From a virus, in IMG/VR virus record IMGVR_UViG_3300022744_000046, positions 1 through 43,550 of that record: DNA of 43,550 bases; one strand, written 5' to 3'. Shown here piece after piece: positions 1,098 through 26,013 of this stretch; position 1 is the stretch's first letter, and each line of letters opens with the position of its first letter. The position numbers and the translations under genes were made by a program. Below the pieces are notes generated by a model. The model was not told the origin of the DNA. It worked only from the letters and a program-made list of their open reading frames with translations, and ran no database searches.

Positions 1098-2579
1098 ATG
1101 TTGCACGAGCTAGGAAAGTTCTGGGCCGGTAGTGAGGACCTGCTTCTGCAGTACGTCACGCAGGCCGCCATCCAGTTGAAGCACGGTTACCAGCCGCCGA
1201 GCCGCCCTCAGGACGACGAGCGATCGCGTTTACTGGACGTGCAAGGCTCTATCGCTGTTGTTGGTGTGCGTGGGTCGCTGACCAACGGGTCAGCCGGATA
1301 CGGCAACTACTCCACGACGTACTCAGAGATCCGAACAGCACTGATTCAGGCCGCTTCGGACCCATCGGTGAAAGCTGTCCTGTTGGACATCTCCTCTGGT
1401 GGCGGTGCTGTCAATGGGGTCAGCGACACCGCGCAGTTGATCCGTCAGGTTGACAAGATCAAACCCGTCTACGCCCACACGGACTCCAGCTGCTGCAGCG
1501 CGGCGTACTGGCTTGGGTCGTCTGCTCGAGCCATCTACGGGTCCGATACGGCCGAGGTCGGTTCCGTTGGCGTCATCACCGTCATGCAGAGCTACAAGCG
1601 CATGTACGAGGAGATGGGTATTGACACCGCCGTGATTCGCTCTGGCGAGTTCAAGGCCCAAGGGCATCCACTCGACAAGCTGAACGAAAAATCCCAAGCA
1701 GCTGTTCAGGCTCAGCTCGACCAACTCTACGGCATGTTTGCCGGCTACGTCGCCGAGCGACGCGGCATGAACATCGACACGTTCAACAAGACGGCCGGCG
1801 AGGGCCGCGTGTTCATCGGCGCCAAAGGCGTTGAGGCCGGCCTGCTGGATGGCGTGACGAGCTTCGACAAGCTGATCTCCCGTGTGGAATCCGACATTCA
1901 ACCTGAGCCACGGAACGCGTTTACGCGCATGTCTGCGCCCCAAAACGCCGTTGCACAAGCCTCTGCAGAAATTTTTGCAGCAGGGGGGATTGCTTTTTCT
2001 CAAAACCCTCTCCAGTCTGGATCGAACGTCATTCAAGGTACCACCATGAAGAAAGCCCTCACTGAACAGCAATTGGCCGCACTGGCCGAAGGCGCCGGTG
2101 CAGCCGTAGAGGCTTCCATCGAGCAGCCTGAGCAAGCAGCTGCCCCCGCAGCGGAAGCCTCTCAAGCCGAACCGGAAGCCGCACAGGCGCCCGAAGCCTC
2201 CGCCGCTCCCGAAACATCCATCGTCCAAGTCCTGCAGGCGCAGTTGCAAGCCTCTCAGGACAAGGTCATCGAGCTGTCCGTCGAGATGAAGTCTATGAAG
2301 GCTGAGCTCGAGGGCGCCAAGAACGCAAACGCGGGTCTGCGCTTCATTGCACAGGCCAGCGTTGACCGCATGAAAGTGGCTCTGGGCATGCCCGGTGGCG
2401 TGGCCGCAGCCAATGACGAGGCCTTGTTGGCCGAGCACGGCACTCTGCGCTCGACTTTCGAGGCCAAGTTCAAGTCTGGCGGTGTTGCAGCGGTTTCCGC
2501 TGCAGCGCCTCAGGAAGGGGCAGTCTCGCAGCCGGATCCGGCTCGTCAGGCCCGTATTCAAGCGACTCGCCTCAAGTAA
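1098..2579 (+). CDS. Prohead protease, peptidase family S49 (lambda C-like), with C-terminal scaffold region
   Basis: This 493-residue protein has an S49/SppA-ClpP fold domain at about residues 45-265. The candidate nucleophile is Ser134 in SCCSAAYWLGSSA, and the general base is Lys186 in RSGEFKAQGHPLDK. The glycine-rich DISSGGGAVNG segment and the GSVGVI strand are typical of the family. In lambda-like phages this enzyme cleaves the scaffold and portal during prohead maturation. Residues 317-493 are Ala/Glu/Gln rich with a predicted coiled coil, and are also encoded as a separate nested gene from 2046. The ATG at 1098 has an AAAGG ribosome site 7 nt upstream. A copy of the phage's 37-bp repeat element lies within the coding sequence at 1984-2020. 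Confidence 0.9.
   Translation: MLHELGKFWAGSEDLLLQYVTQAAIQLKHGYQPPSRPQDDERSRLLDVQGSIAVVGVRGSLTNGSAGYGNYSTTYSEIRTALIQAASDPSVKAVLLDISSGGGAVNGVSDTAQLIRQVDKIKPVYAHTDSSCCSAAYWLGSSARAIYGSDTAEVGSVGVITVMQSYKRMYEEMGIDTAVIRSGEFKAQGHPLDKLNEKSQAAVQAQLDQLYGMFAGYVAERRGMNIDTFNKTAGEGRVFIGAKGVEAGLLDGVTSFDKLISRVESDIQPEPRNAFTRMSAPQNAVAQASAEIFAAGGIAFSQNPLQSGSNVIQGTTMKKALTEQQLAALAEGAGAAVEASIEQPEQAAAPAAEASQAEPEAAQAPEASAAPETSIVQVLQAQLQASQDKVIELSVEMKSMKAELEGAKNANAGLRFIAQASVDRMKVALGMPGGVAAANDEALLAEHGTLRSTFEAKFKSGGVAAVSAAAPQEGAVSQPDPARQARIQATRLK
1984..2020 (+). promoter_or_regulatory. 37-bp bipartite late-gene element, copy 1 (inside protease gene)
   Basis: GGGGGATTG (1984-1992), a 19-nt spacer, then CCAGTCTGG (2012-2020). 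It is read through in frame by the protease gene and ends 25 nt before the nested scaffold ATG at 2046. The spacer has a weak TTTT/AAAA dyad (1994-1997 with 2002-2005). Here the bases after ATTG are CTTT rather than ACT. The placement supports a promoter or other start-linked signal for the scaffold. Confidence 0.75.
2046..2579 (+). CDS. Nested scaffold protein (lambda Nu3-like), in frame with protease C-terminus
   Basis: An in-frame ATG at 2046 has AAGG 7 nt upstream and would give a 177-residue protein identical to the protease C-terminus. It starts KKALTEQQLAALAEGAG, continues with an Ala/Glu/Pro-rich stretch, then a likely coiled coil (VLQAQLQASQDKVIELSVE) and a basic C-terminal end. These are properties of head scaffolds. 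The arrangement matches lambda, where Nu3 starts within gene C and shares its C-terminus. The strongest local evidence is the copy of the repeat element placed immediately before this ATG, as it is before four other late genes. Scaffold expression in excess over protease would be expected. Confidence 0.75.
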   Translation: MKKALTEQQLAALAEGAGAAVEASIEQPEQAAAPAAEASQAEPEAAQAPEASAAPETSIVQVLQAQLQASQDKVIELSVEMKSMKAELEGAKNANAGLRFIAQASVDRMKVALGMPGGVAAANDEALLAEHGTLRSTFEAKFKSGGVAAVSAAAPQEGAVSQPDPARQARIQATRLK

Positions 2580-2592
2580 GGAGTAACTCACC

Positions 2593-3075
2593 ATGGCGAA
2601 ATTCAAGTTCGGACCCTTGGTCGATTCGACCGAAGTCATCACTGCCCGTACCGCTGACGGTACGGGCGCATCCAACCAACTGCTGGACGCCGACACCGGC
2701 AAGTTCCTGAAGCTCAAAGGCGACAGCCAGTATGGTCTGTGCGCTGTGGGCGACGAGATCGAGGGCGTGTTGGTAGCCGCCAACTATCCCGCTCCCGCCG
2801 ACGGCTACAACCTCGGCTCTGTGGCAGTTGAAGGACGCGTTCGCGTGACTCTGGACGGTCTGCAGGCTACGCCCGGCACCGGTGTGATCGCTGTTGGCGA
2901 CTACGTTGTGTGTGGCACCGTTGTCGCACGCGGTACCGCTCTGGGCACCGGTGTGTACCCCAAGGTCTGCAAGGCTACTGCCGCTGGCAACACCTTGAAC
3001 TTCAAGTGGCGCGTGGTGTCTCTGGACGGCACGACAGCAGTGGGTCAAACCGCTGTGATCGAATCCCTCTGCTGA
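2593..3075 (+). CDS. Probable head decoration protein
   Basis: This 160-residue protein lies between the protease/scaffold gene and the major capsid gene, the place of gpD in lambda-like phages. It is rich in small residues and short beta strands (for example VGDEIEGVLVAANY, GRVRVTLDGLQATPGTG) and has no membrane segment or catalytic motif. The ATG follows AAGGAG, which overlaps the upstream stop codon; the spacing sequence GGAGTAACTC is nearly the same as that before the capsid gene, suggesting similar high translation. Decoration proteins bind outside the expanded capsid and stabilise it. The role is inferred from position and composition; I cannot identify the family with certainty. Confidence 0.6.
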   Translation: MAKFKFGPLVDSTEVITARTADGTGASNQLLDADTGKFLKLKGDSQYGLCAVGDEIEGVLVAANYPAPADGYNLGSVAVEGRVRVTLDGLQATPGTGVIAVGDYVVCGTVVARGTALGTGVYPKVCKATAAGNTLNFKWRVVSLDGTTAVGQTAVIESLC

Positions 3076-3090
3076 TCAGCGGCGCAGCTC

Positions 3091-3113
3091 AACAACAAGA
3101 ACAACAGGAGTAA
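3091..3113 (+). promoter_or_regulatory. A/C-rich translational leader and RBS of the capsid gene
   Basis: Bases 3091-3101 read AACAACAAGAA, followed by CAACAGGAG and TAACTCC before the ATG at 3118. The leader should be unstructured and ends in a strong AGGAG. The same 11-mer occurs on the minus strand before the polymerase and ligase starts. Confidence 0.55.
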
Positions 3114-3117
3114 CTCC

Positions 3118-4293
3118 ATGAGCCTCGTTTACATCGCCGCAAACGGCGACAAGTTGCCAGTCGACCTGTCGCTGGATCTGTACAAAGACGCCGCAGACGC
3201 GGGTCAAAGCCTGCCTCAGCTGCTGGCCAATCGCTACCCCACCAACGCCGAAAAGCATGGCTCGACCTACGAGCAGCTGATGGAACAGTGTGGTGTGTTC
3301 GTCAAGGGCAACAAGGAATTCGGCATCCGCGCAAGCACGATGCAAGAAGTCCTGGCACCCAAGGAAGCCAATGGCCTGATCACACGCGAAGGCATCCCCG
3401 CATCGCGCATTCTGTTCCCTGCCACCATTCTCGGCATCATCGAGAACAAGCTGGCTGTGGACCTGACCTCTGACGCCGACGCCTTCAACGGCTTGGTGGC
3501 TCAGGACGACACCATCGCTACCGACAAGTTCGAGCGCCCTGTGCTCAACTTCTCCGAAGCTGAAAAGGGTCGTGCGATGCCTGTGGCCCAGTTGGCCAAG
3601 CCCCAGACCATGCTGAGCATCACTGCCAGCGACAAGTCGATGCGTATCCCCACGTGGGGTATCGGTATGGAGATCTCCGAGCAAGCCTTGGCCTCCACAC
3701 CTATCGACCTGGTAGGTCTGGCCATGGCTCGTCAAGCCGCTGTGGAGAAGAACGAACGTGCCCACAACTTCATCCTGTCCCTGTTGAACGGTGACGTGGA
3801 TCTGGGTATGGCCGCTCTGAGCACCATCTCCAACAAGGTCGTGACCGCTGTGTCTCTGGACAGCACCTCCACCACCGGCATCAGCCACAAGGCTTGGATC
3901 AAGTGGCTGGGCACCAACAGCAAGAAGCGCAAGATCACCCACGTGGTGACCGACGTTGAAGGCATGTTGGCCATCGAGCTGCGCTCCGGTCGCCCCAACT
4001 ACAGCGACAACATCAACGGTGTGACTCAACGCACCAACACCACCTTCAATGTGGCCAACCCCAAGTGGGAAAGCAACGTGACGGTGATCCTGATCGAAAA
4101 CGCCAGCTGGCCTGCCGGCACCATCATGGGCGTCGACGCACGTTACGGCGTGCACCGCGTGTCCAGCCTGATGGCCCAGTACAGCGCCGTCGAGCAGTTC
4201 GCCCTGCGCCGTGCCACTGCCCTGCGCGTGGACTCCGGCGAGATGGCTTACCGCCTGTTCGACGAGGCGTTCGAGGTTCTGACCTACTCCTGA
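3118..4293 (+). CDS. Major capsid protein (HK97 fold)
   Basis: This 391-residue protein builds the icosahedral head. It has the look of an HK97-fold capsid protein: an N-terminal helical region with KDAADAGQSLPQLL, an E-loop-like segment around PVLNFSEAEKGRAMP, a P-domain helix (LVGLAMARQAAVEKNERAHNF), and a C-terminal part with INGVTQRTNTTFNVANP and a receding A-domain. Its place after the decoration protein and before the connector genes matches lambda E. The gene has a strong RBS after an A/C-rich leader, and a strong terminator 15 nt after its stop, which together suggest very high and separately controlled expression. A long antisense open frame on the minus strand here is a codon-bias shadow. 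Confidence 0.88.
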   Translation: MSLVYIAANGDKLPVDLSLDLYKDAADAGQSLPQLLANRYPTNAEKHGSTYEQLMEQCGVFVKGNKEFGIRASTMQEVLAPKEANGLITREGIPASRILFPATILGIIENKLAVDLTSDADAFNGLVAQDDTIATDKFERPVLNFSEAEKGRAMPVAQLAKPQTMLSITASDKSMRIPTWGIGMEISEQALASTPIDLVGLAMARQAAVEKNERAHNFILSLLNGDVDLGMAALSTISNKVVTAVSLDSTSTTGISHKAWIKWLGTNSKKRKITHVVTDVEGMLAIELRSGRPNYSDNINGVTQRTNTTFNVANPKWESNVTVILIENASWPAGTIMGVDARYGVHRVSSLMAQYSAVEQFALRRATALRVDSGEMAYRLFDEAFEVLTYS

Positions 4294-4307
4294 TAGGTCT
4301 GAATGAG

Positions 4308-4334
4308 GAGGGCGGCTTTGGCCGCCCTCTTTTT
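4308..4334 (+). terminator. Intrinsic terminator after the capsid gene
   Basis: A 9-bp stem GAGGGCGGC (4308-4316) and GCCGCCCTC (4321-4329) closes a TTTG loop and is followed by TTTTT (4330-4334). It should end or reduce transcription after the major capsid gene and so lower expression of the connector genes. Confidence 0.85.
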
Positions 4335-4358
4335 CTCCACCACCGCAAGGAAACCAAA

Positions 4359-4598
4359 ATGAGTGACGTAGACACCGCCAAGACTGACCACGTGCAGCCG
4401 GAAACCACATCAGGGAAGCCACCCAAAGCAACGAAAGAAGCAAAGCCAAAGGTTGCTCGCGTGCGCTCTCTCGTCGGCGACTTCCTGATCCTGCACAGCA
4501 ACACCCGCATCGGCGACGGCGAGGAGAAGAAGGTCGAGATCGACCCTTGGGTCCAGCTTCAGATCGATTCAGGCAAGCTCGAAATCGTGGTCGACTAA
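4359..4598 (+). CDS. Small hypothetical head-tail region protein
   Basis: This is a 79-residue protein starting at an ATG preceded by AAGGAAACC. The first 35 residues are polar and rich in Lys, Thr and Pro and are probably disordered. The remaining part (VRSLVGDFLILHSNTRIGDG, then VEIDPWVQLQIDSGKLEIVVD) looks like a compact beta-rich domain. It lies between the capsid terminator and the first connector gene, where many siphoviruses carry a small unassigned head or connector protein. I do not recognise a named family. A longer frame open from 4065 runs over the capsid gene and terminator and is not credible as the real start. Confidence 0.65.
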   Translation: MSDVDTAKTDHVQPETTSGKPPKATKEAKPKVARVRSLVGDFLILHSNTRIGDGEEKKVEIDPWVQLQIDSGKLEIVVD

Positions 4599-4619
4599 TA
4601 CCCTTGGCGGGGTTTCGGC

Positions 4620-5114
4620 ATGGCTTTGACACCTTACTGCACCAACGACGAAGTTCGTGCTGTCCTCGGTATCACGCAGAGTGAGATCAAGGACGAAGTG
4701 CTGGACTTGCCCATCTACGAGATGGGCTTGAAGCGAGAACTCAACCGGATCTCGCCGTCACTGCCTGCCGCTTTTTCCACCGTCAATGGGCTGTCCGCCC
4801 TGACCAGTGCGGAGCAGACCTTCAAGGAAGCTGTTCAGGTCTTCTCCGTCTACGCGGTGGCGCGACAGGCGGGAGCTCCACTTGGCCTTTCCGCGCCAAA
4901 GAGCCTCAATGACGACAAGTCCGGGTTCAGCCGATACGCAGATTCACCCTACCGTGACGTCCTCGAACGAGTCGACATGATGTTCCAACAGGCGCGGCAA
5001 GACCTTGTGGATGCTTTCGCCGCCTACGCTGGGGCGACTTCAGCGGCATTCTACGGAATGCCTGCTGGACTCGCCTTGTCGAGCCGATCCTATGACCCTG
5101 TAACCGGAGCGTGA
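4620..5114 (+). CDS. Head-tail connector (adaptor) protein
   Basis: This 164-residue, mostly helical protein starts with a segment around YCTNDEVRAVLGIT, a pattern seen in gp6/gp15-type adaptor proteins that bind below the portal. The middle has a long helix region (AEQTFKEAVQVFSVYAVARQAG), and the C-terminal part is Ala/Tyr/Ser rich. It is first in the connector series and is followed by a stopper-like, a tail-completion and a tail-terminator gene in the usual order. Its stop is next to the following start, so translation is probably coupled. The adaptor role rests on order, size and the N-terminal pattern. Confidence 0.6.
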   Translation: MALTPYCTNDEVRAVLGITQSEIKDEVLDLPIYEMGLKRELNRISPSLPAAFSTVNGLSALTSAEQTFKEAVQVFSVYAVARQAGAPLGLSAPKSLNDDKSGFSRYADSPYRDVLERVDMMFQQARQDLVDAFAAYAGATSAAFYGMPAGLALSSRSYDPVTGA

Positions 5115-5116
5115 CC

Positions 5117-5947
5117 ATGGAGCTGGTCGACGTCGCCAGCTTCTTTGACAAGATCCCTGCGCGGGATCCAGTCTCTGGCGCTTTGCTGTTTCACTGCCAG
5201 ATCCTGGCCTTCGACGAGAGCAAGCGGGACGCCTACACGGCCTACCGCCGTATCCTTTCTGTCCACCCAGACACAGTGGTTCCGGTGGGCCGGGTCATCA
5301 GCGCCTACGGCACCAAGTGGATGATCGGTGAGGGACAATCTGACGGCTGGGAGAATGAACACCGCCGCAAACATGTGCTCCATAAAGTGACAGGTCAGGT
5401 GTCTGTGTACCGCCTGTCAGGCTTCCTCACCGGTACACCTGCTGCACAGGTGTGGGGCGATGTACAGTGGGTTGCGGACAAGAAAGAGATGGAGGTTTCC
5501 AGCCGGACCCCACAAAAGTTCGCCGCCATCCTGCCGTCCAGCACCACAGTCCAGTTGGGCGATGTGATCGTTCTGGGTGAAACAACCGTTTTGGTGGGTG
5601 CCCGTACCACCCACGCCTCCGGGTTCGTGCAGGCTGAGGGCACGGAGCAGGGGATGCCTGACGCGGCGTCCGTCACCCTGACCACCCGCACATACTCTCC
5701 GGCGGCCGGCGGTTACACCAGTCCGACGAACACTGCCGTCAGTGCGTGGCGTGTGCGGTGGCAGGATATGTTTGCGTACGATGACCAGCTCGACGAGCGT
5801 TACCAAGAGGGCGATTGCACCTGGGTGCTGCCAGCCTCTGCCACCGTGTCCACCGCCACAGAGATTACCTACGGCGCGTTCAAGTACACCGTGCTGGCCA
5901 TCCGCGAAGAGTTTGGCTGCAAGTTGATCCACGCGAGGCAGCGGTGA
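5117..5947 (+). CDS. Head closure (stopper-like) protein
   Basis: This 276-residue beta-rich protein is in the position of the head-tail stopper. It opens with ELVDVASFFDKIPARDPVSGALLFHCQ and carries several segments of the type WMIGEGQSDGWE and VLVGARTTHASGF. The ATG at 5117 has GGAG 8 nt upstream; a GTG at 5111 in the same frame overlaps the upstream stop but is too close to that site. The gene is longer than many stoppers, so it may carry an extra domain from about residue 100 to 200. Its stop overlaps the next start as GTGA. The assignment depends mainly on gene order. Confidence 0.5.
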   Translation: MELVDVASFFDKIPARDPVSGALLFHCQILAFDESKRDAYTAYRRILSVHPDTVVPVGRVISAYGTKWMIGEGQSDGWENEHRRKHVLHKVTGQVSVYRLSGFLTGTPAAQVWGDVQWVADKKEMEVSSRTPQKFAAILPSSTTVQLGDVIVLGETTVLVGARTTHASGFVQAEGTEQGMPDAASVTLTTRTYSPAAGGYTSPTNTAVSAWRVRWQDMFAYDDQLDERYQEGDCTWVLPASATVSTATEITYGAFKYTVLAIREEFGCKLIHARQR

Positions 5948-6531
5948 AGGTTGATCTGCGGTCATTCGATAAGGCCTCCGCCATGGTCATTCTCCGGGCG
6001 GAGGAGACACTCGTGGCGGAGTACCGTGATGTTGCTAGAGAGATATTCTGGCGCATCCTGAATGAAACCCCGCAGTTCACGGGCAGGGCGACGGCGCACT
6101 GGCAGGTCGGGATAGACGCACCAGATCTGAGCTACCAAGACGACTCTGTGGGGAAGGTGGTCAATATGTTGACCGGCCGCCACAAGAAGAACGGTCAGTT
6201 CTACAAAGCAGATTCAGCTCTATCCAAGGGGCACCAAGATGCTGTAATGGCTGCGTGGGCGCGCAACGAGCACAAGTTTGATCTGATCAAGCGCAGATCC
6301 AAGGTATTCTTTTCCAACAACGTGCAGGGTGACACGGACGGCGGCAAGAGAAGTGAGAACTACATCACATCTCTGCAGGAGTCTGGGTACTGGGTAGAGA
6401 AGCTACGTGGCGTGAACAAGCCCTATGAAACAGTGGCTGAGACCATCATGTTGGTTCAGCTAGCCCGCTCACCGACTGGCCGAGGCCCGTTCACATTCAG
6501 AGGAAGCCGGCAGGCATTCACCAACCTATGA
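5944..6531 (+). CDS. Tail completion / neck protein (HK97 gp10-like)
   Basis: This 195-residue protein starts at GTG 5944, overlapping the upstream TGA. Around residues 25-55 it has an amphipathic helix ending in EIFWRILNETPQFTGRATAH, the pattern found near the N-terminus of gp10-type neck and tail-completion proteins. It continues with a basic middle part (NEHKFDLIKRRSKVFFSNN) and ends in a conserved-looking GPFTFRG segment. Its stop overlaps the start of the tail terminator gene. A longer frame begins at 5815 within the upstream gene and is not needed. The protein is expected at the head-tail junction. Confidence 0.65.
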   Translation: MKVDLRSFDKASAMVILRAEETLVAEYRDVAREIFWRILNETPQFTGRATAHWQVGIDAPDLSYQDDSVGKVVNMLTGRHKKNGQFYKADSALSKGHQDAVMAAWARNEHKFDLIKRRSKVFFSNNVQGDTDGGKRSENYITSLQESGYWVEKLRGVNKPYETVAETIMLVQLARSPTGRGPFTFRGSRQAFTNL

Positions 6532-6932: not shown

Positions 6933-6944
6933 TTTTTTCGTATA

Positions 6945-6981
6945 GGGGGATTGCTTTTTTCGAAAAGCTCGTCCAGTCTGG
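6945..6981 (+). promoter_or_regulatory. 37-bp bipartite late-gene element, copy 2 (before tail tube gene)
   Basis: GGGGGATTG (6945-6953), a 19-nt spacer, then CCAGTCTGG (6973-6981); the tail tube ATG is 33 nt further on. The spacer and last G of the first block form a perfect 6-bp hairpin GCTTTT-TTCG-AAAAGC (6953-6968) with a UUCG-type tetraloop. An A/T-rich stretch follows the tail terminator stop just upstream. Confidence 0.8.
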
Positions 6982-7014: not shown

Positions 7015-8238
7015 ATGACCTACGCGTCCGGCGCCTTTGGCCAACTGCGCTACATCCCCGAGGTGACCCAAAACGTCACGCCCGTTGCCGGCAACGGTGT
7101 CAACTTGCGGGTCACCAATCCGACCTTGAAGGCTTCCGTCAAATCGGTCAAGTCCAACGAGATCTCTTCTACCCGCATGGTGTCCGGTTCCACCAACGTG
7201 GACATCGATGTCAGCGGCGGCTTCGACTTCGAGCTGTCTGGTAAAGAATACGACCCGTTCATCGAAGCCTCGGTGTACGGCGCATTCGCCCACTACGGCA
7301 CCAATGGCCTCGGCTCCACTTTCTCCTGCACAACCACAGCTGGCAAGATCACTGCCGGCGCAGCCCCCACAGGCGGCTCCGCTTTCACCGGTCTGGCTGC
7401 CGGCTCTTGGTTCAAGCTGAACCCACCTGCAGGCGCGAGCGACACAGTGAAGACCTACTTCGCTGACAAGTGGTTCAAGGTGGCCTCTACTACCTCCACC
7501 GAGATCACTCTGGACGCAGCCACTCAGATCAGCGGCGCTGGTTTGGGCATCACTGCTGTGGCTGGCTTCTCTGTGACTCAGTCTGTGGTGAGCAACGGCA
7601 ACACTGCCAAGTTCTTCACGTTCGAGTACGACCAGACCGACATCGCTCAGTTGCTGCAGTTCCGCGGCATGCAGACCAACTCCATGGACCTGAAGCTGGA
7701 CGTTGGCTCGATCATCACCGGTTCGTTCGACTTCATGGGCATGTCTCACGGCATCACCCAGACCACGACTCTGCCCGGCAGCCCCGTGGCCAGCCAGTCT
7801 CTGGACCCCATGAACGCTGTGACCGACGTTGGCCTCGTGATGGAGAACGGCGCGAACCTATTGTCCGCAGGCTCTTTCATCAAGTCCGTCAGCCTGAACA
7901 TCGCCAACAACCTGCGTGCCCAGAAGGCTGTCGGTGTGTTCGGCAACGCTGGCATCGGTTCCGGTGAGCTGGCCGTTAGCGGCTCTCTGGAGGTGTACTT
8001 CGAGGACGCCACCTACTACAGCAAGTGGCTGAACGGCACCACCACCAGCCTGGCAATCGGCATGGCCGACCAATTGGGCAACGGCTATCTGTTTGAAATG
8101 GACAAGGTCAAGTTCAAGGACGGCGGCCTGAAGCCCGGCGGCAAAGACTCCGACGTGATGTTGAGCTTGCCTTTCGACGCCTTCTACAACGCAGGCACTG
8201 GCCGCGGTATCCGCATCACACGCGCCATCTCTGCGTAA
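7015..8238 (+). CDS. Major tail (tube) protein
   Basis: This 407-residue beta-rich protein is the likely tail tube subunit. The N-terminal part (residues 1-90) and C-terminal third (LEVYFEDATYYSKWLNGTT, LPFDAFYNAGTGRGIRITRA) resemble a group of long siphophage tail tube proteins. The middle, about residues 95-190, is Thr/Gly/Ala rich and could be an inserted Ig-like or surface domain. The ATG at 7015 has GGAG 6 nt upstream; a TTG at 7003 is in frame but has no good ribosome site. The gene has its own upstream repeat element, fitting the need for many copies per virion, and is followed by two hairpins. Confidence 0.8.
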   Translation: MTYASGAFGQLRYIPEVTQNVTPVAGNGVNLRVTNPTLKASVKSVKSNEISSTRMVSGSTNVDIDVSGGFDFELSGKEYDPFIEASVYGAFAHYGTNGLGSTFSCTTTAGKITAGAAPTGGSAFTGLAAGSWFKLNPPAGASDTVKTYFADKWFKVASTTSTEITLDAATQISGAGLGITAVAGFSVTQSVVSNGNTAKFFTFEYDQTDIAQLLQFRGMQTNSMDLKLDVGSIITGSFDFMGMSHGITQTTTLPGSPVASQSLDPMNAVTDVGLVMENGANLLSAGSFIKSVSLNIANNLRAQKAVGVFGNAGIGSGELAVSGSLEVYFEDATYYSKWLNGTTTSLAIGMADQLGNGYLFEMDKVKFKDGGLKPGGKDSDVMLSLPFDAFYNAGTGRGIRITRAISA

Positions 8239-17056: not shown

Positions 17057-17093
17057 GGGGGATTGACTGGAGCACAAAGGTGTTCCAGTCTGG
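17057..17093 (+). promoter_or_regulatory. 37-bp bipartite late-gene element, copy 3 (after tape measure gene)
   Basis: GGGGGATTG (17057-17065), a 19-nt spacer, then CCAGTCTGG (17085-17093). It begins 3 nt after the tape measure stop, and the next ATG is 58 nt downstream. The left block end, spacer and right block form an 11-bp stem (17065-17075 with 17080-17090, loop AAAG, one G-T wobble), the strongest dyad of the five copies. Confidence 0.8.
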
Positions 17094-17151: not shown

Positions 17152-18066
17152 ATGATCGTCCTCAAGCCCAACAAACTCAGCGCTGCCAGCCTGATCTCCA
17201 CCACTGCGGTGGAGACGGTTGCGCTTTGGAACGCGGCTACGAGTTACGCCGTGGGCAACCTTGTGCGTCGGGACACGACCAACCGCATCTATGAGTGCCT
17301 GACCGCAGGTGTCGATGCGACGTTGCCGGAGGTGTCGGCGGCGCTGGCCACCGGCGCACGCTGGCTGGACACCGGTCCATCGAACAAGTACGCGATTCTG
17401 GACGAGCAGATCAACACGAAAACGTCGGCGACTACAACGCTGACCTTCGTCATCGCCCCGGGTGCATGCACCTCAATCGCGTTGTTCGGCATCGAGGGAG
17501 CCTACACAGCCACAGCCACCGTGCGTGACGGTCTGGCTGGATCAGTCGTGTTCACGAAGACCCAGACATTGGACGCCACGATCATCACGGACTGGTTCGA
17601 CTACTTCTTCGAGCTGAACGTGCCGAAGCCAGATTGGGTTGTGACGGGCATCCCGCCATACAACAACGCGCACGTGACCATCACCCTGACGGCCACCACC
17701 GGCACCACCGTCAAGTGCGGTGTATTCCTCGCCGGTTTCACCTATGACCTCGGCACCACCAACTACGGTGCGTCGGCCGGGATCATCGACTACAGCAAGA
17801 AGGACACCGACGAATTCGGCAACACCACGTTCGTCCGTCGGGCGTACAGCAAGCGCCTGAGCGCCAAGCTGGACCTGCCGAATTCCAAGCTCAACAAGAT
17901 CCAGTACGTGCTGGCTGAGCTCCGCGCCACCCCATCCGCCTGGATGGGCACCAACGAGTTCGGGTACGACCCGCTCACGGTGTACGGCTTCTACAAAGAT
18001 TTCAGCATCGAGGTGCAGTACGCCGACTGGTCGTCATGCAGCCTCGAGATTGAGGGGTTGATTTAA
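17152..18066 (+). CDS. Tail tip protein with carbohydrate-binding-like N-terminus
   Basis: This 304-residue protein is the first gene after the tape measure. Around residues 24-75 the pattern ALWNAATSYAVGNLVRR ... YECLTAG ... RWLDTGPSN resembles a chitin-binding type 3/CBM5-12 module (Trp, then Tyr-x2-Gly-x-x-Val, then Trp). The rest is beta-rich, with ELNVPKPDWVVTGIPP and KKDTDEFGNTTFVRRAYS segments, ending in EVQYADWSSCSLEIEGLI. A distal tail or baseplate hub role with sugar contact is inferred from position and module. Its TAA overlaps the next ATG (TAATG). The ATG has only a weak GTGGG ribosome site, despite the repeat element upstream. Confidence 0.55.
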   Translation: MIVLKPNKLSAASLISTTAVETVALWNAATSYAVGNLVRRDTTNRIYECLTAGVDATLPEVSAALATGARWLDTGPSNKYAILDEQINTKTSATTTLTFVIAPGACTSIALFGIEGAYTATATVRDGLAGSVVFTKTQTLDATIITDWFDYFFELNVPKPDWVVTGIPPYNNAHVTITLTATTGTTVKCGVFLAGFTYDLGTTNYGASAGIIDYSKKDTDEFGNTTFVRRAYSKRLSAKLDLPNSKLNKIQYVLAELRATPSAWMGTNEFGYDPLTVYGFYKDFSIEVQYADWSSCSLEIEGLI

Positions 18067-19316: not shown

Positions 19317-22135
19317 GCCGCAATTTGACCGTTACACAGGCGTCCACAGTTCAGGATGACCCCATCTACGCGACCACAGCATCCGCTGTCGCTGCCAACG
19401 ATCTTCTCGTCTACGACGAGAACAACGCCGTCAAGACCGCATCCGTGTCGTCCACGATGACGGTCTACGGACCGAAACTGAACCCTTCGTATACGTTTTC
19501 AAGTGTAGGTAGATCAACCTACTACCCGTCGACAGGTGTGAACCACCTCGCATCTACCTGCCTGAACAACGGCAACATTGCCTATGTGTTCAATGACACG
19601 GGTAACTCAAACCGCGCATCCGTGACGGTGATGAGCCCGACATTGACATCCGTAGTTGCACCAATCGCGCTACATGCGTCGGCAACTATCATCACTTGCG
19701 ACATCCATAGTCTGGCTGGAGGTGGGTTCGTTGTTGGTGTTTGGTTAAATACCAACGAAATCATCGTGGCTGCGTACCAGGCTGATGGTACTGTGATCTT
19801 GGCCCCTACAAACGTCGCAACTCTTACTATCGCCGCCGGGTGCACGGTCAAAGTCTGCCGGGCCGATACCACCGGAACTGGTTTCGCTATTTTCTACTGT
19901 AATGGTGGGTCTTCCCTCACCGGTCGCAATTACACGTCAGCTGGTGTCGCTCTAACGGCCGCCACTATCTACTCGTCTGCAGCTGCGGCCTCCCAGTTCG
20001 TCAGCTATGGGTACGGCAGCAAGTTCACTGTCATGCGCAACCCATATGACGGTCTCATTTACTTGGCGACCTTCAACAACACAACCACCACAAGCTCCTA
20101 TACAGACCACGTCTACATTGCGTCAATCTCCTCCTCCAGCCTGGCGAATAACAGCTCCGTAAACACATTCAGCTGGACAACACCAAGCGCAATCACGGCA
20201 TTCAAGCGGATTGAGATGTTGCCGTGGGATGGCACGATATTGGTATTCGTAGCAGCAGCCAAGTACTACAACAACGCGAACTACGGTGGCTATAGATTCA
20301 AGTCGTTCGCTGCCGGCAGCCTCACGTCAAGTTGGTCAGCCGAAGCCGGGTTCTTCGGGGACTCGGGGCTGTCTGAAAGCGCCTATGCGTATGGTCACGT
20401 AGGTACGATGAAAGCCTGCATAGCTGATCACAGCACAGGCCGCTCCTTCCTTGCCTTGGCAGACCCTAACGGCAACCGCATTCGAGTGCTCGAATTCGCC
20501 CCCGGTGCGGCCACCGCGCTGGAGCGCAACACGGTGAATCACGGCTGCAGCCCAGCCTACCCCAATATCACCATTTGTGCCAACGGTGACAACGTCTATA
20601 CGATGCGCCCGGCGAGCGTGAGCGCCCCGTCAGCCGCGTCTATCTACTTTGATGCCCTCAGTGCGGCTCCAGAGGTTGTGTCCGTGACGGCGACCTATGA
20701 CGCCTACGGGAAGGCTGTCGGAGTCCCTACCGCGACTGACTACGCAGTGCCAAGTGGAGACTACAACATCCAGTACGCCCTGAAGAACGGGCAGGGTATG
20801 GTTACCGAAGATCACAACCAGTACATGCACCGTAAATCGGTGTCGCTGCCAAACGGCGGCTTCGCGTACCTCGCCAACTCCATAACCGGAAGCAGCGAGT
20901 ACAACACGTACGGCGCGGGCAATGCGCAGAGCTACGCACCGCAGATTGTGTTCCTGCACGCCGATGCATCCTCCGCCTACTCGGCGGTGATCCTGCACAA
21001 GCAAGGGTCCATCTACAGCTACGGCCCAGTGGGCGGCCCGACTACGGTCAATGTGTATGGGACCATTCACTTCGTCAACAACAGGTTCTGCCTGCTGCGC
21101 AAGATCTACAACGTCAACTCGGTCTACTCACTGGAGTTGACGATCCTCGATGCGACGGGCCGCACCTGCACGTACAACGGCGATCTGTTCAACCTGTCCA
21201 GCGGGTCGACTCTCTCGCACTACGACGCAGTGGACGTTGGCGGCAATCGCCTGTTTGTAGCCTGGACCGATGTTCTTTCTACATCAAACGCCACAGGCAG
21301 GGTAGTTTGCTACAACATCACTAGCGGTGGCAGTATCTCGACAGCTTTGGCGCTCACCGCTATGACTGGCAACCAGTCATACCAGTACGGTCGTGTGGCG
21401 GTTGGGTACAACAAGACGCATGCTATTGCCGTGACGTGTCAGGATGGGTCGCCGGCAACCACACCGACCTTCAGCACCACAACGGTCCCACTGGCCACGA
21501 TGGCCAGCCCGAGCCACGGGACTGTTGCCAGTCCTAACGGACTAAGCCAAAACAACGCAGCCTTGCGCATCGTGCCGTTTGGGTCTGGATCTTCAAAGTT
21601 CGCCATCTTTTTCTCTACAAGCAGCTCATCAAGCGTCTACGAATACCTGTTCACTACCAACGGATCGAATACTGTATACAGCACCAACACAACCGGCGTT
21701 CTTTACGGCTTCAAGGTGTTCAACAAGCCTGATGGATCCGCTGCATTCGTCTACAACCCGACAACGTCAGGCACTGCGGTGAACAACTACGGGCCAGACA
21801 AGACAACCGTGTCTACCGGGTATGCGACTGTGGGGACCAACACTAACTACGGCTACACCTTCCGAGCAGCTGACGGCACCTTGCTGGCGCGTATCCCGAC
21901 CAATACCGACTGGAGCTACTTCTCCTCGGCCGTAGTGCCGTCTGTCGCAGGTGTCGCCAAGGCGGCGGCCAACTCCGGGGACGTTGTGGGCATCGCCCGC
22001 ACCGGCACCTACCGCCTGAACAAGTCGTACGGCACGTTCGTGTTCAACAACAAGGGGAGCTCACCTCCCGGAGCCAAGGGCATTGTCACTGGTGCCACGG
22101 CCATCCTCAACTCTTCAAAAACCAACATCAATTGA
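19313..22135 (+). CDS. Large tail fibre / receptor-binding protein
   Basis: This 940-residue protein is dominated by Ser, Thr, Asn, Gly, Ala and Tyr and by short beta strands. It shows recurring segments in which aromatic and Asn residues alternate (for example GSEYNTYGAGNAQSYAPQIVF and SYQYGRVAVGYNKTHAIAVT), suggesting beta-propeller or beta-helix repeats. No catalytic motif, signal peptide or membrane segment is seen. The size, composition and position after the tail tip make it the best receptor-binding candidate. The ATG at 19313 overlaps the upstream stop; an in-frame TTG at 19298 is less likely. The first third looks slightly more A/T-rich than flanking genes, as is usual for swapped host-range genes. 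Confidence 0.65.
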   Translation: MSRNLTVTQASTVQDDPIYATTASAVAANDLLVYDENNAVKTASVSSTMTVYGPKLNPSYTFSSVGRSTYYPSTGVNHLASTCLNNGNIAYVFNDTGNSNRASVTVMSPTLTSVVAPIALHASATIITCDIHSLAGGGFVVGVWLNTNEIIVAAYQADGTVILAPTNVATLTIAAGCTVKVCRADTTGTGFAIFYCNGGSSLTGRNYTSAGVALTAATIYSSAAAASQFVSYGYGSKFTVMRNPYDGLIYLATFNNTTTTSSYTDHVYIASISSSSLANNSSVNTFSWTTPSAITAFKRIEMLPWDGTILVFVAAAKYYNNANYGGYRFKSFAAGSLTSSWSAEAGFFGDSGLSESAYAYGHVGTMKACIADHSTGRSFLALADPNGNRIRVLEFAPGAATALERNTVNHGCSPAYPNITICANGDNVYTMRPASVSAPSAASIYFDALSAAPEVVSVTATYDAYGKAVGVPTATDYAVPSGDYNIQYALKNGQGMVTEDHNQYMHRKSVSLPNGGFAYLANSITGSSEYNTYGAGNAQSYAPQIVFLHADASSAYSAVILHKQGSIYSYGPVGGPTTVNVYGTIHFVNNRFCLLRKIYNVNSVYSLELTILDATGRTCTYNGDLFNLSSGSTLSHYDAVDVGGNRLFVAWTDVLSTSNATGRVVCYNITSGGSISTALALTAMTGNQSYQYGRVAVGYNKTHAIAVTCQDGSPATTPTFSTTTVPLATMASPSHGTVASPNGLSQNNAALRIVPFGSGSSKFAIFFSTSSSSSVYEYLFTTNGSNTVYSTNTTGVLYGFKVFNKPDGSAAFVYNPTTSGTAVNNYGPDKTTVSTGYATVGTNTNYGYTFRAADGTLLARIPTNTDWSYFSSAVVPSVAGVAKAAANSGDVVGIARTGTYRLNKSYGTFVFNNKGSSPPGAKGIVTGATAILNSSKTNIN

Positions 22136-22143
22136 GGTGACAC

Positions 22144-22425
22144 ATGGCTACAGGAATTTTGATTGCGAACGGCAACACCAGCGTCACGTACACCTACACC
22201 CCTAACGTGGACGCCCGGGTGATCATCGCCTGCGGGTCTCCAGGCACAGTCAACGGCTACTCAATGACCGTCAACGGAGCCACCCTCTACAGCTCGAGCG
22301 GCGTCACCAGTGGTATCGCTACTCCCCCGCAGTGGGAGATTTTCGTGGGGGCAGGCCAGACCCTGACCCTTGTCTGGCCGGGATCCGCTGCCATGTCCGC
22401 CGTCGTCTCTTGCATCGAGGAGTAA
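22144..22425 (+). CDS. Small beta-rich tail-associated protein
   Basis: This 93-residue protein follows the large fibre gene after GAGGTG and ACAC. It appears to be all beta: GILIANGNTSVTYTYTPN, then ARVIIACGSPGTVNGYSMTV and a final WEIFVGAGQTLTLVWPG. The final stretch is of the type that ends in a hydrophobic strand, as in small phage head or tail fibre adhesins. No known family can be named. The similar size and composition to the 19005 gene suggest both decorate or cap the fibre. It is followed 4 nt later by the next gene. Confidence 0.5.
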   Translation: MATGILIANGNTSVTYTYTPNVDARVIIACGSPGTVNGYSMTVNGATLYSSSGVTSGIATPPQWEIFVGAGQTLTLVWPGSAAMSAVVSCIEE

Positions 22426-22429
22426 TCAC

Positions 22430-22852
22430 ATGAAAGCCATCTTCATCAAAGCCGGCGTCGTCACTGGCGTGGCCTCTTTCTCCACCGGTGCTATCGCGTC
22501 GAGCGACCCCGACGTCGTCACCATCTACCAGCCGGACGACTTCGCTGTCAACGCCGGTGACACCTACGCGGACGGCGTGTTCACGCCCGGCACGCCCCCG
22601 GCACCGCCTGCGCCCGTGGTATCGCCAGTCCAGTTCAAACTGCTGTTCACCGCGCAGGAGCGCGTGGCCATGCGGACGGCACGCGCCACAGACCCTGTCA
22701 TCGACGACTTCTTCGACATCGTCGAAGACCCTCGCCTGACCGGTGTTGACCTCGGCATGCAGAGTACGCAAGATGCCGTCGCATACCTCAACGCTCAGGG
22801 TCTCCTGACCGATGAGCGCGCTGCGGAGGTGCTGACAGGGGTGCTGAAGTGA
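22430..22852 (+). CDS. Conserved-type tail-end protein, unknown function
   Basis: This 140-residue protein starts at an ATG after GAGGAG. The N-terminal part (KAIFIKAGVVTGVASFSTG and VVTIYQPDDFAVNAGDTY) describes a short beta domain often found before fibre assembly-type segments. A Pro-rich linker (TPPAPPAPVV) leads to a helical C-terminal domain (FKLLFTAQERVAMRTARA, VIDDFFDIVED, STQDAVAYLNAQGLL). This layout is seen in small proteins encoded after tail fibres in proteobacterial phages, but their role is not settled. Its stop overlaps the start of the peptidase gene. Confidence 0.55.
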   Translation: MKAIFIKAGVVTGVASFSTGAIASSDPDVVTIYQPDDFAVNAGDTYADGVFTPGTPPAPPAPVVSPVQFKLLFTAQERVAMRTARATDPVIDDFFDIVEDPRLTGVDLGMQSTQDAVAYLNAQGLLTDERAAEVLTGVLK

Positions 22853-23733
22853 ATCAAGTCGACCTGCGATCAGCCTACGACCAGGTCTACAACCAAGGCT
22901 CCAACCCATCGTGCGGGCCTCACGCGGTGACCGCCGCGCTGGACTGCATGTACGAGCGCGTGCTTAACAAGCAGGTGCGGTTCAGCAAGGACTACATCTG
23001 GGAGTGGAGCCGCTTCCACTTGGGCCTCGCCGGGCAGTCTGTTGGCAGCACGTTCGAGTCGCTGGAGAAGACCCTGCGGGTGAACGGTGCCCGGCTCGGT
23101 GACGACGTCATCAGGGGGTTCCGACTCGAGCGCACCTTCGTCAGCGACCCCACCTACACCGAGATGCGCAACCTGCTTTGTGCAGGCTTCCCTGTCATCT
23201 GGTTGATGAAGGCCACACCAGACCTCATCGCACTGGACGGCAAGCGCAACTGGCGGCAGCACCACCTGAGTACCGACACCTCCGAGACGTGGGGCATGCA
23301 CTTCGTGGCCATTGTTGGCTATGACGACGACGCCCAAATGTGGCTGGCTGAGAACTCCTGGGGCCCCGACTGGGGTGACGGCGGTTTCTTCGGCATCCCA
23401 TACAAATCGTTCAGCGCGCTGACCGAGGGGATCATGCACATCAACGTGGCACCCATCAACCCGAAACCCGTGGAGGGATACAAGATGCCAATGGCATACA
23501 TGCTCACGAACGATCGCGCCGCATTCGCCGAGCGCGTTACACCAGCCCTGATCGAGGTGCTCACCAAGGCCATGACGGACGGGGACGTGCCCGGGTTGAT
23601 TGCCGCCTGCAAGAAGTGGGGTGTCGGCGACAAGCACTTGGAGACCATGCTTGGCTGGGAGCGCGGGTCTGTTCGGTCCTTCAAGACGGAGCACCCCAGC
23701 CTCGAGTGGGACGATTTCGTCTGGGAGCAGTGA
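22849..23733 (+). CDS. Papain-like cysteine peptidase (family C1)
   Basis: This 294-residue protein has the papain catalytic layout. Gln16 (oxyanion) and Cys22 lie in VYNQGSNPSCGPHAVTAALD, His151 in WGMHFVAIVGYDD, and Asn169 in the classic NSWGPDWGDGGFFGIPY. No pro-domain or signal peptide is seen; the mature domain begins at once. A C-terminal extension of about 80 residues (from around 210) is helical and charged. The gene overlaps its neighbours by 4 nt on the left and by TGATG on the right, so it is part of the fibre-to-lysis transcript. Possible roles are virion-borne cleavage of host surface proteins, processing of tail fibres, or help in lysis. The fold is secure, the role is not. Confidence 0.8.
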   Translation: MNQVDLRSAYDQVYNQGSNPSCGPHAVTAALDCMYERVLNKQVRFSKDYIWEWSRFHLGLAGQSVGSTFESLEKTLRVNGARLGDDVIRGFRLERTFVSDPTYTEMRNLLCAGFPVIWLMKATPDLIALDGKRNWRQHHLSTDTSETWGMHFVAIVGYDDDAQMWLAENSWGPDWGDGGFFGIPYKSFSALTEGIMHINVAPINPKPVEGYKMPMAYMLTNDRAAFAERVTPALIEVLTKAMTDGDVPGLIAACKKWGVGDKHLETMLGWERGSVRSFKTEHPSLEWDDFVWEQ

Positions 23734-23969
23734 TGAGTTACTGGCTCGCCCTGTTCGTCGCCATCGATCAGCTGCTCAACGTAATGCTGTTCGGCAGCCC
23801 TGACGAGACCCTCAGCAGCCGCGCATACCGGGCCGACCGTGACGGCAAGGTCTTCGGCAAGCTGTTCCGCCCCTGCATCGACGCCTTGTTTTTCTGGCAG
23901 GCGCAACACTGCTACCAGGCATACCTGTCCGAGCTTCGGCGCAAGCAGTACTCCGCCAATTTCAGGTAG
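23733..23969 (+). CDS. Small conserved-type phage protein near lysis genes
   Basis: This 78-residue protein starts at an ATG overlapping the peptidase stop. It begins with a hydrophobic helix (SYWLALFVAIDQLLNVMLFG), then GSPDETLSSRAYRADRDGK, a Phe/Cys-rich helix around ALFFWQAQHCYQAYLSEL and a basic end. Similar small proteins are common just before lysis genes in proteobacterial phages, without known function. The first helix may associate with the membrane. Its stop TAG abuts the first G run of repeat element copy 4, so the transcript unit appears to end here and a new one to begin. Confidence 0.6.
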   Translation: MSYWLALFVAIDQLLNVMLFGSPDETLSSRAYRADRDGKVFGKLFRPCIDALFFWQAQHCYQAYLSELRRKQYSANFR

Positions 23970-24006
23970 GGGGGATTGACTTTGGTCCGCGGCCGCTCCA
24001 GTCTGG
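23970..24006 (+). promoter_or_regulatory. 37-bp bipartite late-gene element, copy 4 (before holin)
   Basis: GGGGGATTG (23970-23978), a 19-nt spacer, then CCAGTCTGG (23998-24006). It starts right after the upstream TAG stop and ends 22 nt before the holin TTG start. GACT (23978-23981) can pair with AGTC (24000-24003), with a GCGGCCGC palindrome in the spacer. Confidence 0.8.
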
Positions 24007-24028
24007 TTCAAACCACTGGAGCTTCGGA

Positions 24029-24394
24029 TTGGCTGAACCAACCTCGACCGCATCCATCAGCCTGACGGTCCTGGCTGTTGGATTTTTTGGCCCCTTAGCC
24101 GGGCCTTACACCGTCATTATTTTCGCCGCACTGGCTGGTGCCATGTGGCCTCTGTCCGCACACACAACAGGGAGCAAGCTGGCCGGAGCATGGCTGTTGC
24201 TGCGCTGCACGCTGACCGCTGTATTCATGACCGGCGTATTTGCCACGTTTTTGGAGCGGCACCTGCAGGTACCGATCAATGAAGGACTTGCCCCCATCGC
24301 CTTGATCATCGGTGCCTTGGGTAATGGTTGGCGGCCGGTGTTTGAAGCCATCAGCAACGCGATGGCTGCACTTGTTGGACGGAGAGAGAAATGA
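24029..24394 (+). CDS. Holin-like membrane protein
   Basis: This 121-residue protein has hydrophobic segments at about 9-35, 55-75 and 88-102, and a short charged end (GRREK), as in three-segment holins. Holins form lesions in the inner membrane that start lysis. The start is TTG with GGAG 8 nt upstream; no ATG is available at the N-terminus. Use of TTG would hold translation down, which suits a lysis timer. It is the first gene after repeat element copy 4 and overlaps the next membrane protein gene by ATGA, so the lysis cassette has its own control point. Confidence 0.65.
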   Translation: MAEPTSTASISLTVLAVGFFGPLAGPYTVIIFAALAGAMWPLSAHTTGSKLAGAWLLLRCTLTAVFMTGVFATFLERHLQVPINEGLAPIALIIGALGNGWRPVFEAISNAMAALVGRREK

Positions 24395-24738
24395 CAAACT
24401 TTGATGTGCTCGCCGTCGTGGCGAGCGAGGTCTTGTGCGCGTCCCTCTTTTACGGGTGCTTTGTTCGGGCGGTTAGGTCGTCATCCGACATCGTCCTCTT
24501 CGAGGTCCGCCTGGCGTTCAACATGCTGTCGGCCGCGGCCCTGTGGGGGATGGCGGCCCCGATCTTCGGCCACGTACCAGACGTCGGCGACCTGCTCATG
24601 TTGGCAGCCATCTCATACACACAGCACATCACAACTCGCCACTGGGAAGAGAATGTTCCGCCCAGATTCCTCAAACGTGAGTACCGCCGGCGTCGGGATG
24701 ACTCCGACTTTATGACCAGCAGGATGCACCGATCATGA
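24391..24738 (+). CDS. Second holin-like / lysis membrane protein
   Basis: This 115-residue protein overlaps the holin gene by 4 nt. Hydrophobic stretches occur at about 6-26 (VLAVVASEVLCASLFYGCF), 40-60 (LAFNMLSAAALWGMAAPIF) and 65-78, followed by a strongly basic tail (REYRRRRDD). It could be an antiholin, a second holin or a spanin-like partner; the sequence alone does not decide. The stop overlaps the start of a tiny W/R-rich peptide gene. Membrane location is well supported; the specific role is inferred from neighbours. Confidence 0.5.
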   Translation: MTNFDVLAVVASEVLCASLFYGCFVRAVRSSSDIVLFEVRLAFNMLSAAALWGMAAPIFGHVPDVGDLLMLAAISYTQHITTRHWEENVPPRFLKREYRRRRDDSDFMTSRMHRS

Positions 24739-24833
24739 TGTTCAATCTCCTGTGGCCACATCTCTGGCCGCGTATCTGGTGGAGGTTGGACGACGTCATC
24801 CCCCGACGACGCCGACGACATGAGTCTGCGTAG
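24735..24833 (+). CDS. Tiny tryptophan- and arginine-rich peptide in lysis cassette
   Basis: This is a 32-residue frame starting at ATG 24735 and overlapping the upstream stop. The first half contains four tryptophans in a hydrophobic run (LLWPHLWPRIWWRL); the second has five arginines in a row after DDVIP. AGGA lies about 11 nt before the start. A short amphipathic, cationic peptide in a lysis cassette could disturb membranes, but it could also be a leader that couples translation to the endolysin, whose start is 12 nt after its stop. No homologous family is recalled. Confidence 0.4.
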   Translation: MMFNLLWPHLWPRIWWRLDDVIPRRRRRHESA

Positions 24834-24845
24834 GAGCCTGTTGCT

Positions 24846-25415
24846 ATGAGCCCACAACAACTGCAGCTGGTGATGGGCATCAAACCCAATCTCGCCTCCC
24901 GGTGGGCCCCCTTCATCGAAAGGGCTCTTAAGCTCAGTGAGTGCAACACCAAGCAGCGCAAGGCCGCTTGGCTGGCTCAGATCGGGCACGAGTCCGGGTG
25001 CTTGCGCTACACCCGCGAGATCTGGGGCCCAACCCCACAACAACTCCGGTACGAGCCTGGCACCACGCTGGCGGCCCGCCTCGGCAACACCCAACCCGGA
25101 GACGGTGCCCGGTACATGGGGCGCGGCCTCATCCAGATCACCGGCCTCGCCAACTACCAGATGTGCACGCAGCAGATGCGAAAGCTGGTGGAGGGCCTTG
25201 AGGTGCCTAACTTCGTTCAGGAGCCTGAGCTACTGGAGCGCCCGAGCTGGGCCTCCCTGACCGCTGCCGTGTTCTGGAAAAAGAACAAGCTGAACCGGTT
25301 CGCCGACAGCGGCAACTTTGTCGAGCTGACCAAACGAATCAACGGTGGCCTGAACGGCCTGGCACACCGTCAACACCTATACGTGGCCGCCTTGGGAGTG
25401 CTTGAAAATGAATGA
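24846..25415 (+). CDS. Endolysin, glycoside hydrolase family 19
   Basis: This 189-residue enzyme hydrolyses the peptidoglycan sugar backbone. GH19 chitinase/lysozyme features are clear: AWLAQIGHESG with catalytic Glu49, a second candidate Glu58 in TREIW, YMGRGLIQITGLANY, and TKRINGGLNG near the end. There is no signal peptide, so release to the periplasm should need the holin. The protein consists of the catalytic domain alone. It follows the W/R-rich peptide and overlaps the downstream membrane protein gene. Its RBS is AGGAG, 7 nt or so before ATG. Confidence 0.88.
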   Translation: MSPQQLQLVMGIKPNLASRWAPFIERALKLSECNTKQRKAAWLAQIGHESGCLRYTREIWGPTPQQLRYEPGTTLAARLGNTQPGDGARYMGRGLIQITGLANYQMCTQQMRKLVEGLEVPNFVQEPELLERPSWASLTAAVFWKKNKLNRFADSGNFVELTKRINGGLNGLAHRQHLYVAALGVLENE

Positions 25416-25977
25416 TTTGGTGACCTCCGTCCTTGGGGCGGTCTTTTCTGGTGGGGCCACAGGCCTCCTCGGTGTCCTGATCCAACGCTGGTTCGACTTC
25501 AAGCACAAGCAGCAGGAGATCGAGGTGGTGAAGCTGCAACTCGAGAACGCCAAGGAATTGGCGCAGATCGAGGCAGGCCGCAGCACCCGTGTGGCTGAGA
25601 TGGACATGGAGGCCCGGTTCGTGGAGGCCGACGCCGCCGTGATGCAGGCCAGCTTCAAGCACGACCAAGCCAGCTACCTGCTTCCAGAGGCACAACAGCG
25701 CAAGGGCTTCGTGGGCGGCCTGATCGTCTTCCTGATGGCCAGCGTGGACTTTCTGCGCGGCATCTTGCGCCCGGGTATGACCGCCTACCTGTGTGGGTTG
25801 GTCACGGTGATGTTCTTCTGGGTGCGCAACCTCGCCGCCAGCTACGGCATGTCGCTCTCATCTGACCAAGCGTTCCAACTGATGCTGCAGATCATCCTGA
25901 CCATCCTGTACGTTTTCTCCACGTGCACAACGTGGTGGTTTGGCGCCCGGCCGCCCAAAACGAAAGAGTCGTCGTAG
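25408..25977 (+). CDS. Coiled-coil multi-span membrane protein (lysis-associated)
   Basis: This 189-residue protein starts at ATG 25408 inside the endolysin end. It has an N-terminal hydrophobic segment (about 4-24), a charged coiled coil (about 30-90, HKQQEIEVVKLQLENAKELA), then three hydrophobic segments (about 100-117, 125-145 and 155-180) and a short basic tail. It resembles three-segment holin-type membrane proteins such as GTA_holin_3TM, and the coiled coil also recalls i-spanins. Adjacent location to the endolysin supports a lysis role. Its stop TAG forms the left edge of repeat element copy 5. Confidence 0.5.
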   Translation: MNDLVTSVLGAVFSGGATGLLGVLIQRWFDFKHKQQEIEVVKLQLENAKELAQIEAGRSTRVAEMDMEARFVEADAAVMQASFKHDQASYLLPEAQQRKGFVGGLIVFLMASVDFLRGILRPGMTAYLCGLVTVMFFWVRNLAASYGMSLSSDQAFQLMLQIILTILYVFSTCTTWWFGARPPKTKESS

Positions 25978-26013
25978 GGGGATTGACTTTCGGGGCCGGA
26001 CTCCCCAGTCTGG
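25977..26013 (+). promoter_or_regulatory. 37-bp bipartite late-gene element, copy 5 (after lysis cassette)
   Basis: GGGGGATTG (25977-25985) shares its first G with the upstream TAG stop. A 19-nt spacer and CCAGTCTGG (26005-26013) follow, and the next ATG is 34 nt on. GACT-GGGG (25985-25988, 25992-25995) pairs with CCCC-AGTC (26003-26010) with a 3-nt bulge. Confidence 0.8.

Follow-up and report, generated by a model that had tools for sequence, protein, structure and literature searches.

A bipartite start-associated element, probably a promoter class, in a group of uncultured phages

The element and its copies in the window

A bipartite element of the form GGGGGATTG-N19-CCAGTCTGG recurs before genes in a 43,550-nt stretch of viral DNA (positions 1 to 43,550 of IMG/VR record IMGVR_UViG_3300022744_000046; hereafter the window) and, judged by its sequence conservation and its orientation with the genes, probably constitutes a phage-specific promoter class. 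The window contains five perfect copies, each with 0 mismatches and on the plus strand, and a search of both strands allowing up to 3 mismatches returned none beyond these five; 100 dinucleotide shuffles of the window searched with the same tolerance gave a mean of 0.06 copies and a maximum of 1. Either block alone, GGGGGATTG or CCAGTCTGG, occurs in the window only at the same five sites. The first-pass annotation's description of five copies with identical blocks and a constant 19-nt gap was thus borne out. Its placement of them 22-58 nt before a start codon, with three abutting the upstream stop, agrees with the measured distances: the end of the element precedes the next start codon by 25, 33, 58, 22, and 34 nt for the five copies in order, and the upstream stop is abutted or overlapped by the copies at 17057, 23970, and 25977, while the copy at 6945 begins 12 nt past a stop. 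The intergenic gaps that hold copies are minimal, and the upstream stop codon is often overlapped.

Copy 1 (1984..2020) lies within a head-protease open reading frame, with a -35-like TTGCTT at 1990-1995 and the second box, CCAGTCTGG, at 2012-2020. Copy 2 (6945..6981) precedes the major tail (tail tube) gene, which starts at 7015, and copy 3 (17057..17093), the tail-tip copy, is located between the tape measure gene and the gene at 17152-18066 (phrog_6278, annotated as of unknown function). Copy 4 (23970..24006) abuts a stop codon and is followed by a holin-like membrane gene with a TTG start at 24029, and copy 5 (25977..26013), the post-lysis copy, overlaps the stop of the gene at 25408-25977, with the start of a small gene downstream at 26048.

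Copy 1 is the most telling copy for promoter anatomy. It is embedded in the protease reading frame (1098-2579), 25 nt upstream of an in-frame internal ATG that opens a predicted nested gene (2046..2579, plus strand) sharing its frame with the protease C terminus, 948 nt or 316 codons from the start of the reading frame, and apparently encoding a scaffold protein. The arrangement of protease, nested start, and element is kept in a diverged relative (contig G005, record L015). In phage lambda, too, the scaffold protein (Nu3) is encoded in frame within the 3' portion of the protease gene (C); here the nested gene has its own copy of the element inside the protease coding sequence.

Copies in related phages

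A stretch of a 76.8-kb IMG/VR contig (G001) is near-identical to the window, and its capsid protein is 100% identical. Among deposited phages, megablast matched nothing in the first 25 kb of the window. At the protein level, distant relatives of the capsid and the DNA polymerase (~25-32% identity) occur in Pseudomonas phages PMBT3, Lana, and UAntarctica and in Vibrio phages, SHOU24 among them. A temperate lifestyle is probable, since a tyrosine integrase gene (27119..28180, minus strand) is present in the window and an excisionase was also found.

The first-pass annotation had proposed a scan of the complete genome and of related phages. G001 carries ten copies, six perfect and four with a degenerate left block; one perfect copy sits at the terminase-portal junction, upstream of the window's extent. 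Of the four degenerate copies, two are on the minus strand and precede early HNH genes (GAGGGATTG.. at 73266-73302 and TAGGGATTG.. at 71626-71662), and the other two stand before a KilAC gene (AGGTGCTTGAC.., 5145) and an endonuclease VII gene (ATGTGGTTGAC.., 6883). The earlier claim that the element is missing from the minus strand and from early genes therefore holds inside the window and fails in the near-identical longer contig; because G001 has minus-strand and early-gene copies, the apparent restriction to plus-strand late genes is an artefact of the window. Additionally, five further related contigs (G002-G006) carry copies, part of them at the same gene junctions and part at new ones.

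A scan of IMG/VR with the correct spacing found multiple copies per contig in this phage group only, whereas the chance control, a scan of the collection with the wrong spacing (N17), returned singletons only. The same bipartite repeat was absent from the scanned regions of PMBT3, UAntarctica, and SHOU24, and no relevant paper appeared among the matches listed for the second block, CCAGTCTGG, in the phage literature. A host-wide promoter class was also considered and rejected, as a 19-base version of the pattern had two chance-level matches in 85,000 genomes. Within the collections scanned, the element is a signature of a family of uncultured, seemingly temperate phages, in which it stands ahead of capsid, tail, lysis, and endonuclease genes.

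Conserved core and promoter-like features

The 18 distinct copies share the core TTG(AC)-N16-(T)CCAGTCTGG, of which TTG-N19-CCAGTCTGG is invariant, and a T precedes the second block in nearly all of them. TTG is kept in 18/18 copies and TTGAC in 14/18; TTG was required by the scan that defined the 18 copies, yet it was also retained in a scan allowing 3 mismatches. When these mismatches were allowed anywhere, the left block accounted for all of them and CCAGTCTGG was untouched. Within the left block, GGGGGA, which lies just upstream of the -35-like box, is found mostly in the late-gene subset and is variable in the early set; by this sequence comparison it is the dispensable part, and TTG(AC) is the part conserved in relatives. 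Position weight matrix scores were bimodal, with true copies at 27-49 bits and everything else in the scanned sequence at or below 7.4 bits, and therefore no degenerate background is present; the matrix was built with TTG and CCAGTCTGG required, so the invariance of CCAGTCTGG rests instead on the 3-mismatch scan. All 18 distinct copies run with the local genes, and at orthologous sites the blocks are retained while the spacer and flanks have diverged.

In the proposed promoter, a -35-like TTG(AC)(T/A) is combined with the invariant (T)CCAGTCTGG, placing CAGTCT exactly 17 bp downstream in the -10 position. Compared with sigma70 promoters, a TTGACA-like -35 hexamer is present (TTG and TTGAC at the frequencies given above) and the distance from TTGACT to CAGTCT is 17 bp in all copies, within the 16-18 bp of a sigma70 spacer; the invariant CAGTCT, in contrast, matches TATAAT at 2/6 positions. 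These two shared positions, A-11 and T-7, are the most important in a -10 box. Because the -10 hexamer departs from TATAAT, the label "sigma70 promoter" is not justified, and the sequence of the second box corresponds to none of the known bacterial promoter boxes. The likeness to sigma70-type promoters thus comprises TTGAC at -35, the 17-bp spacing, A and T at the key -10 positions, and an oriented position before genes, and the difference comprises an invariant (T)CCAGTCTGG that is not TATAAT-like, a far greater uniformity, and the GGGGGA extension in late copies. The idea of a two-contact promoter site in the first-pass annotation, with TTGACT and CAGTCT 17 nt apart, is the best-supported reading, with the correction that the element is not purely a late-gene element.

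RNA polymerase would start ~5-8 nt past CCAGTCTGG. The portal ATG follows the element by 5-7 nt (7 or 5 nt), and structured leader RNAs begin 3-13 nt after it. Given the unusual -10 box, the host enzyme would need a phage-encoded partner, and the element promoters would turn on after early expression from ordinary TATAAT-type promoters. One such ordinary promoter, a rightward TTCATA-N17-TATGAT, precedes the first rightward gene of G001 (gene X, discussed below), which indicates that TATAAT-type -10 boxes are used elsewhere in the phage. It belongs to an AT-rich divergent region (L037:4520-4700) that also holds a leftward TTGATG-N18-TATAAT. Its TATGAT ends 8 nt before the ATG, which suggests that this phage has leaderless starts.

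Late promoters that depend on P1 Lpa, P2 Ogr, Mu C, and T4 gp55 resemble the element in being dispersed, near-identical sites before morphogenesis and lysis genes; in the present phage, a search that had no positive control detected no polymerase of its own. Those promoters keep a good -10 and have lost the -35, whereas the element retains the -35 and is unusual at the -10. Relatives of the four factors were not recognised among the proteins scanned, and a search of the window for the T4-type late promoter TATAAATA gave a single hit with 1 mismatch, fewer than the 1.67 expected by chance. The start-associated sequences found in cluster K mycobacteriophages, with which the first-pass annotation had drawn a parallel, are also repeated, oriented, and placed before gene starts; this parallel is superficial, since those sequences (GGGATAGGAGCCC) are contiguous 13-mers in ribosome-binding-site position (PMC3203893), whereas the element is bipartite, and GGGATAGGAGCCC had zero matches in the window within 2 mismatches.

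At the terminase-portal junction, PMBT3 and UAntarctica have a common promoter-like block, TTGTA-N18-TAAACT, which lends weak support to an ancestral promoter at that junction. The sequence that the two phages share between terminase and portal (L112:1786-1909 and L113:16399-16534) is CTTGTAWTTCAGC..ACTAAACTCGCGCCATCT. In UAntarctica a second TTGACA-N18-TAAACTCGG is found before the tRNAs.

Predicted hairpins and leader RNAs

For 12 late copies, we compared the energy needed to open the ribosome-binding region when the RNA reads through from upstream with that needed when it begins at element position 43. The mean opening cost fell from 12.3 kcal/mol in read-through RNA to 5.6 kcal/mol in element-started RNA. 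Burial of the ribosome-binding site in read-through RNA only was in significant excess over both 96 other gene starts (Fisher p = 9e-6) and sequences in which the spacer and the upstream 20 nt had been shuffled (p = 0.003). By these folding statistics, ~7/12 late copies fit hairpin gating of the T4 type and ~5/12 give no signal; the signal is driven by the copies at the tail tube, portal, holin, tail tip (relative), and post-lysis (relative) genes, and neither scaffold copy contributes to it, nor do the tail-tip and post-lysis copies of the window or the second holin copy. Orthologous portal copies have differing hairpin arms (GCCCAT/ATGGGC versus TTCAGC(CC)/GGGCTGAA).

In about half of the late copies, then, read-through RNA would fold so that element sequence pairs with the start codon or the ribosome-binding site, and element-started RNA would lack the 5' arm and would therefore be free for translation. 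In these folding models, several copies look built to silence the gene on read-through messages. A promoter combined with a hairpin that gates read-through RNA has been described for T4 gene e and I-TevI (PMC2988022, PMC3014915), and in T4 gene e, soc, I-TevI, and segB the promoter and the 5' arm of such a hairpin overlap, and the ribosome site of read-through RNA is buried, as proposed here; the difference is that here the arrangement is deduced from folding statistics and concerns structural genes, and that T4 late promoters have the sequence TATAAATA.

Five early element copies are followed by a structured leader RNA of ~90 nt (L037:5207-5293, L037:6962-7050, L010:2578-2663, L010:3895-3980, and, on the minus strand, L015:6757-6833), which is itself followed by KilAC, HNH, and endonuclease VII genes. 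Its outer part is a long bulged helix, GCC(C/T)TTGG..CCAAGG(G/C)C, which encloses an inner three-way junction, and a pseudoknot of six pairs joins the strand just 5' of the helix to the loop of the first inner hairpin. Across the five sequences, a small alignment from which the structure itself was derived, 96.5% of the cells pair and 17/29 pairs have changed on both sides, with a covariation score of 0.672 compared to 0.278 for shuffled and at most 0.114 for slid alignments. The leader RNA is absent from Rfam, and a search of IMG/VR with a restrictive pattern found no more members.

The Rfam search likewise gave no hit at the element copies or in their vicinity, its sole match being a tRNA in L040, and known RNAs, such as a group I intron or a ribozyme, were set aside as candidates; a conserved hairpin in every copy was also rejected, the enrichment being mild and uneven. 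On the minus strand of record L039 (e.g., 5043-5028, 5947-5932, 4256-4242, and 9713-9699), repeated small hairpins (for example GCCGCCTCGTTGCGGC-TTTTTAGGAG) followed by TTTTTAGGA(G) were seen before early genes. These are possibly a second start-associated element in which hairpin and ribosome site are combined.

A candidate regulatory gene beside the first copy

Among the five records searched, no match to Sigma70_r2 was found, and Sigma70_r4 gave weak, sub-threshold helix-turn-helix (HTH) matches in G002 and G003 only, in searches that diverged sigma factors would escape. The T7-type single-subunit RNA polymerase family (PF00940) had no match, and no control genome matched either. These searches thus gave no convincing match for a phage-encoded sigma factor or T7-type polymerase as the reader of the element.

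Gene X encodes a protein of 146-162 aa with two predicted HTH segments (L037:4694-5167, L010:2101-2541, L015:6886-7374) and lies immediately before, and overlapping, the first element copy in 3/3 phages with that region. Its C terminus is conserved, and no homolog was found in the deposited-phage collection. The predicted model contains two HTH units at moderate confidence, but it places the domains poorly (pTM 0.36); its matches to PDB structures were weak and of the KorA/ArdK type. A predicted two-HTH protein encoded beside a two-block site is suggestive of a candidate regulator. We consider it possible, with considerable doubt, that a phage factor, perhaps gene X, redirects the host RNA polymerase such that the -35 is read normally and TCCAGTCTGG replaces the -10, and that this is coupled genome-wide to hairpins gating read-through translation. 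Such redirection would amount to sigma appropriation in reverse.

Alternative explanations

Oriented repressor sites could just as well be dispersed through the genome of a temperate phage, and this weighs against the promoter reading. Stoperators like those of mycobacteriophage L5, at which a two-contact prophage repressor would block transcription in lysogens, are conceivable here because the phage looks temperate from its integrase and excisionase and because L5 stoperators also track the direction of transcription; we nevertheless judge them unlikely. In L5 and other cluster A phages, stoperators are asymmetric intergenic sites correlated with the direction of transcription (PMC9283540), the element is likewise intergenic and oriented with transcription, and KilAC/antirepressor genes lie downstream of copies. 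Known stoperators, however, are contiguous 13-mers with a known repressor, whereas the element has two blocks with an invariant 19-nt gap, and no cognate repressor was recognised. TTGAC and the -10 position at exact sigma70 spacing, the copy inside the protease gene that marks a nested start, and the leaders and start codons right after the element also argue for a promoter over a repressor site.

That the blocks act in mRNA, through processing, antitermination, or translation control, and not as DNA, appears highly improbable. The spacer and flanks show a mild excess of self-complementarity (Fisher p 0.007 and 0.008) and many copies fold better than shuffles; such a role is disfavoured, however, because no structure is common to all copies, about half being without any. 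Furthermore, the blocks show no consistent pairing with each other, and the strongly covarying RNA begins downstream of the element and is missing at late copies. We give least credence, and very little, to a recombination or module-boundary sequence for cassette swapping whose promoter-like features would be coincidental. Copy 5 (25977-26013) does sit at a mosaic joint, since G003 (L040:5819-5855) is identical at 59/60 positions upstream and has unrelated genes downstream, and some copies precede mobile HNH genes, but this explanation is supported at one site only, and it has to contend with fixed positions before core genes (portal, scaffold, tail) and leaves the orientation rule and the 17-bp spacing between TTGAC and the -10 position unexplained.

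Implications

Should the element be a promoter, it would define a phage regulon whose -10 box is not of the TATAAT type; the all-or-none conservation of the element makes it easily tested with reporters. It would also point to an undiscovered factor that redirects RNA polymerase in a phage where neither a sigma factor nor a polymerase could be recognised. Finally, it would suggest that the hairpin gating known from T4 arose in an unrelated, probably temperate phage group, where it would cover capsid and tail genes.
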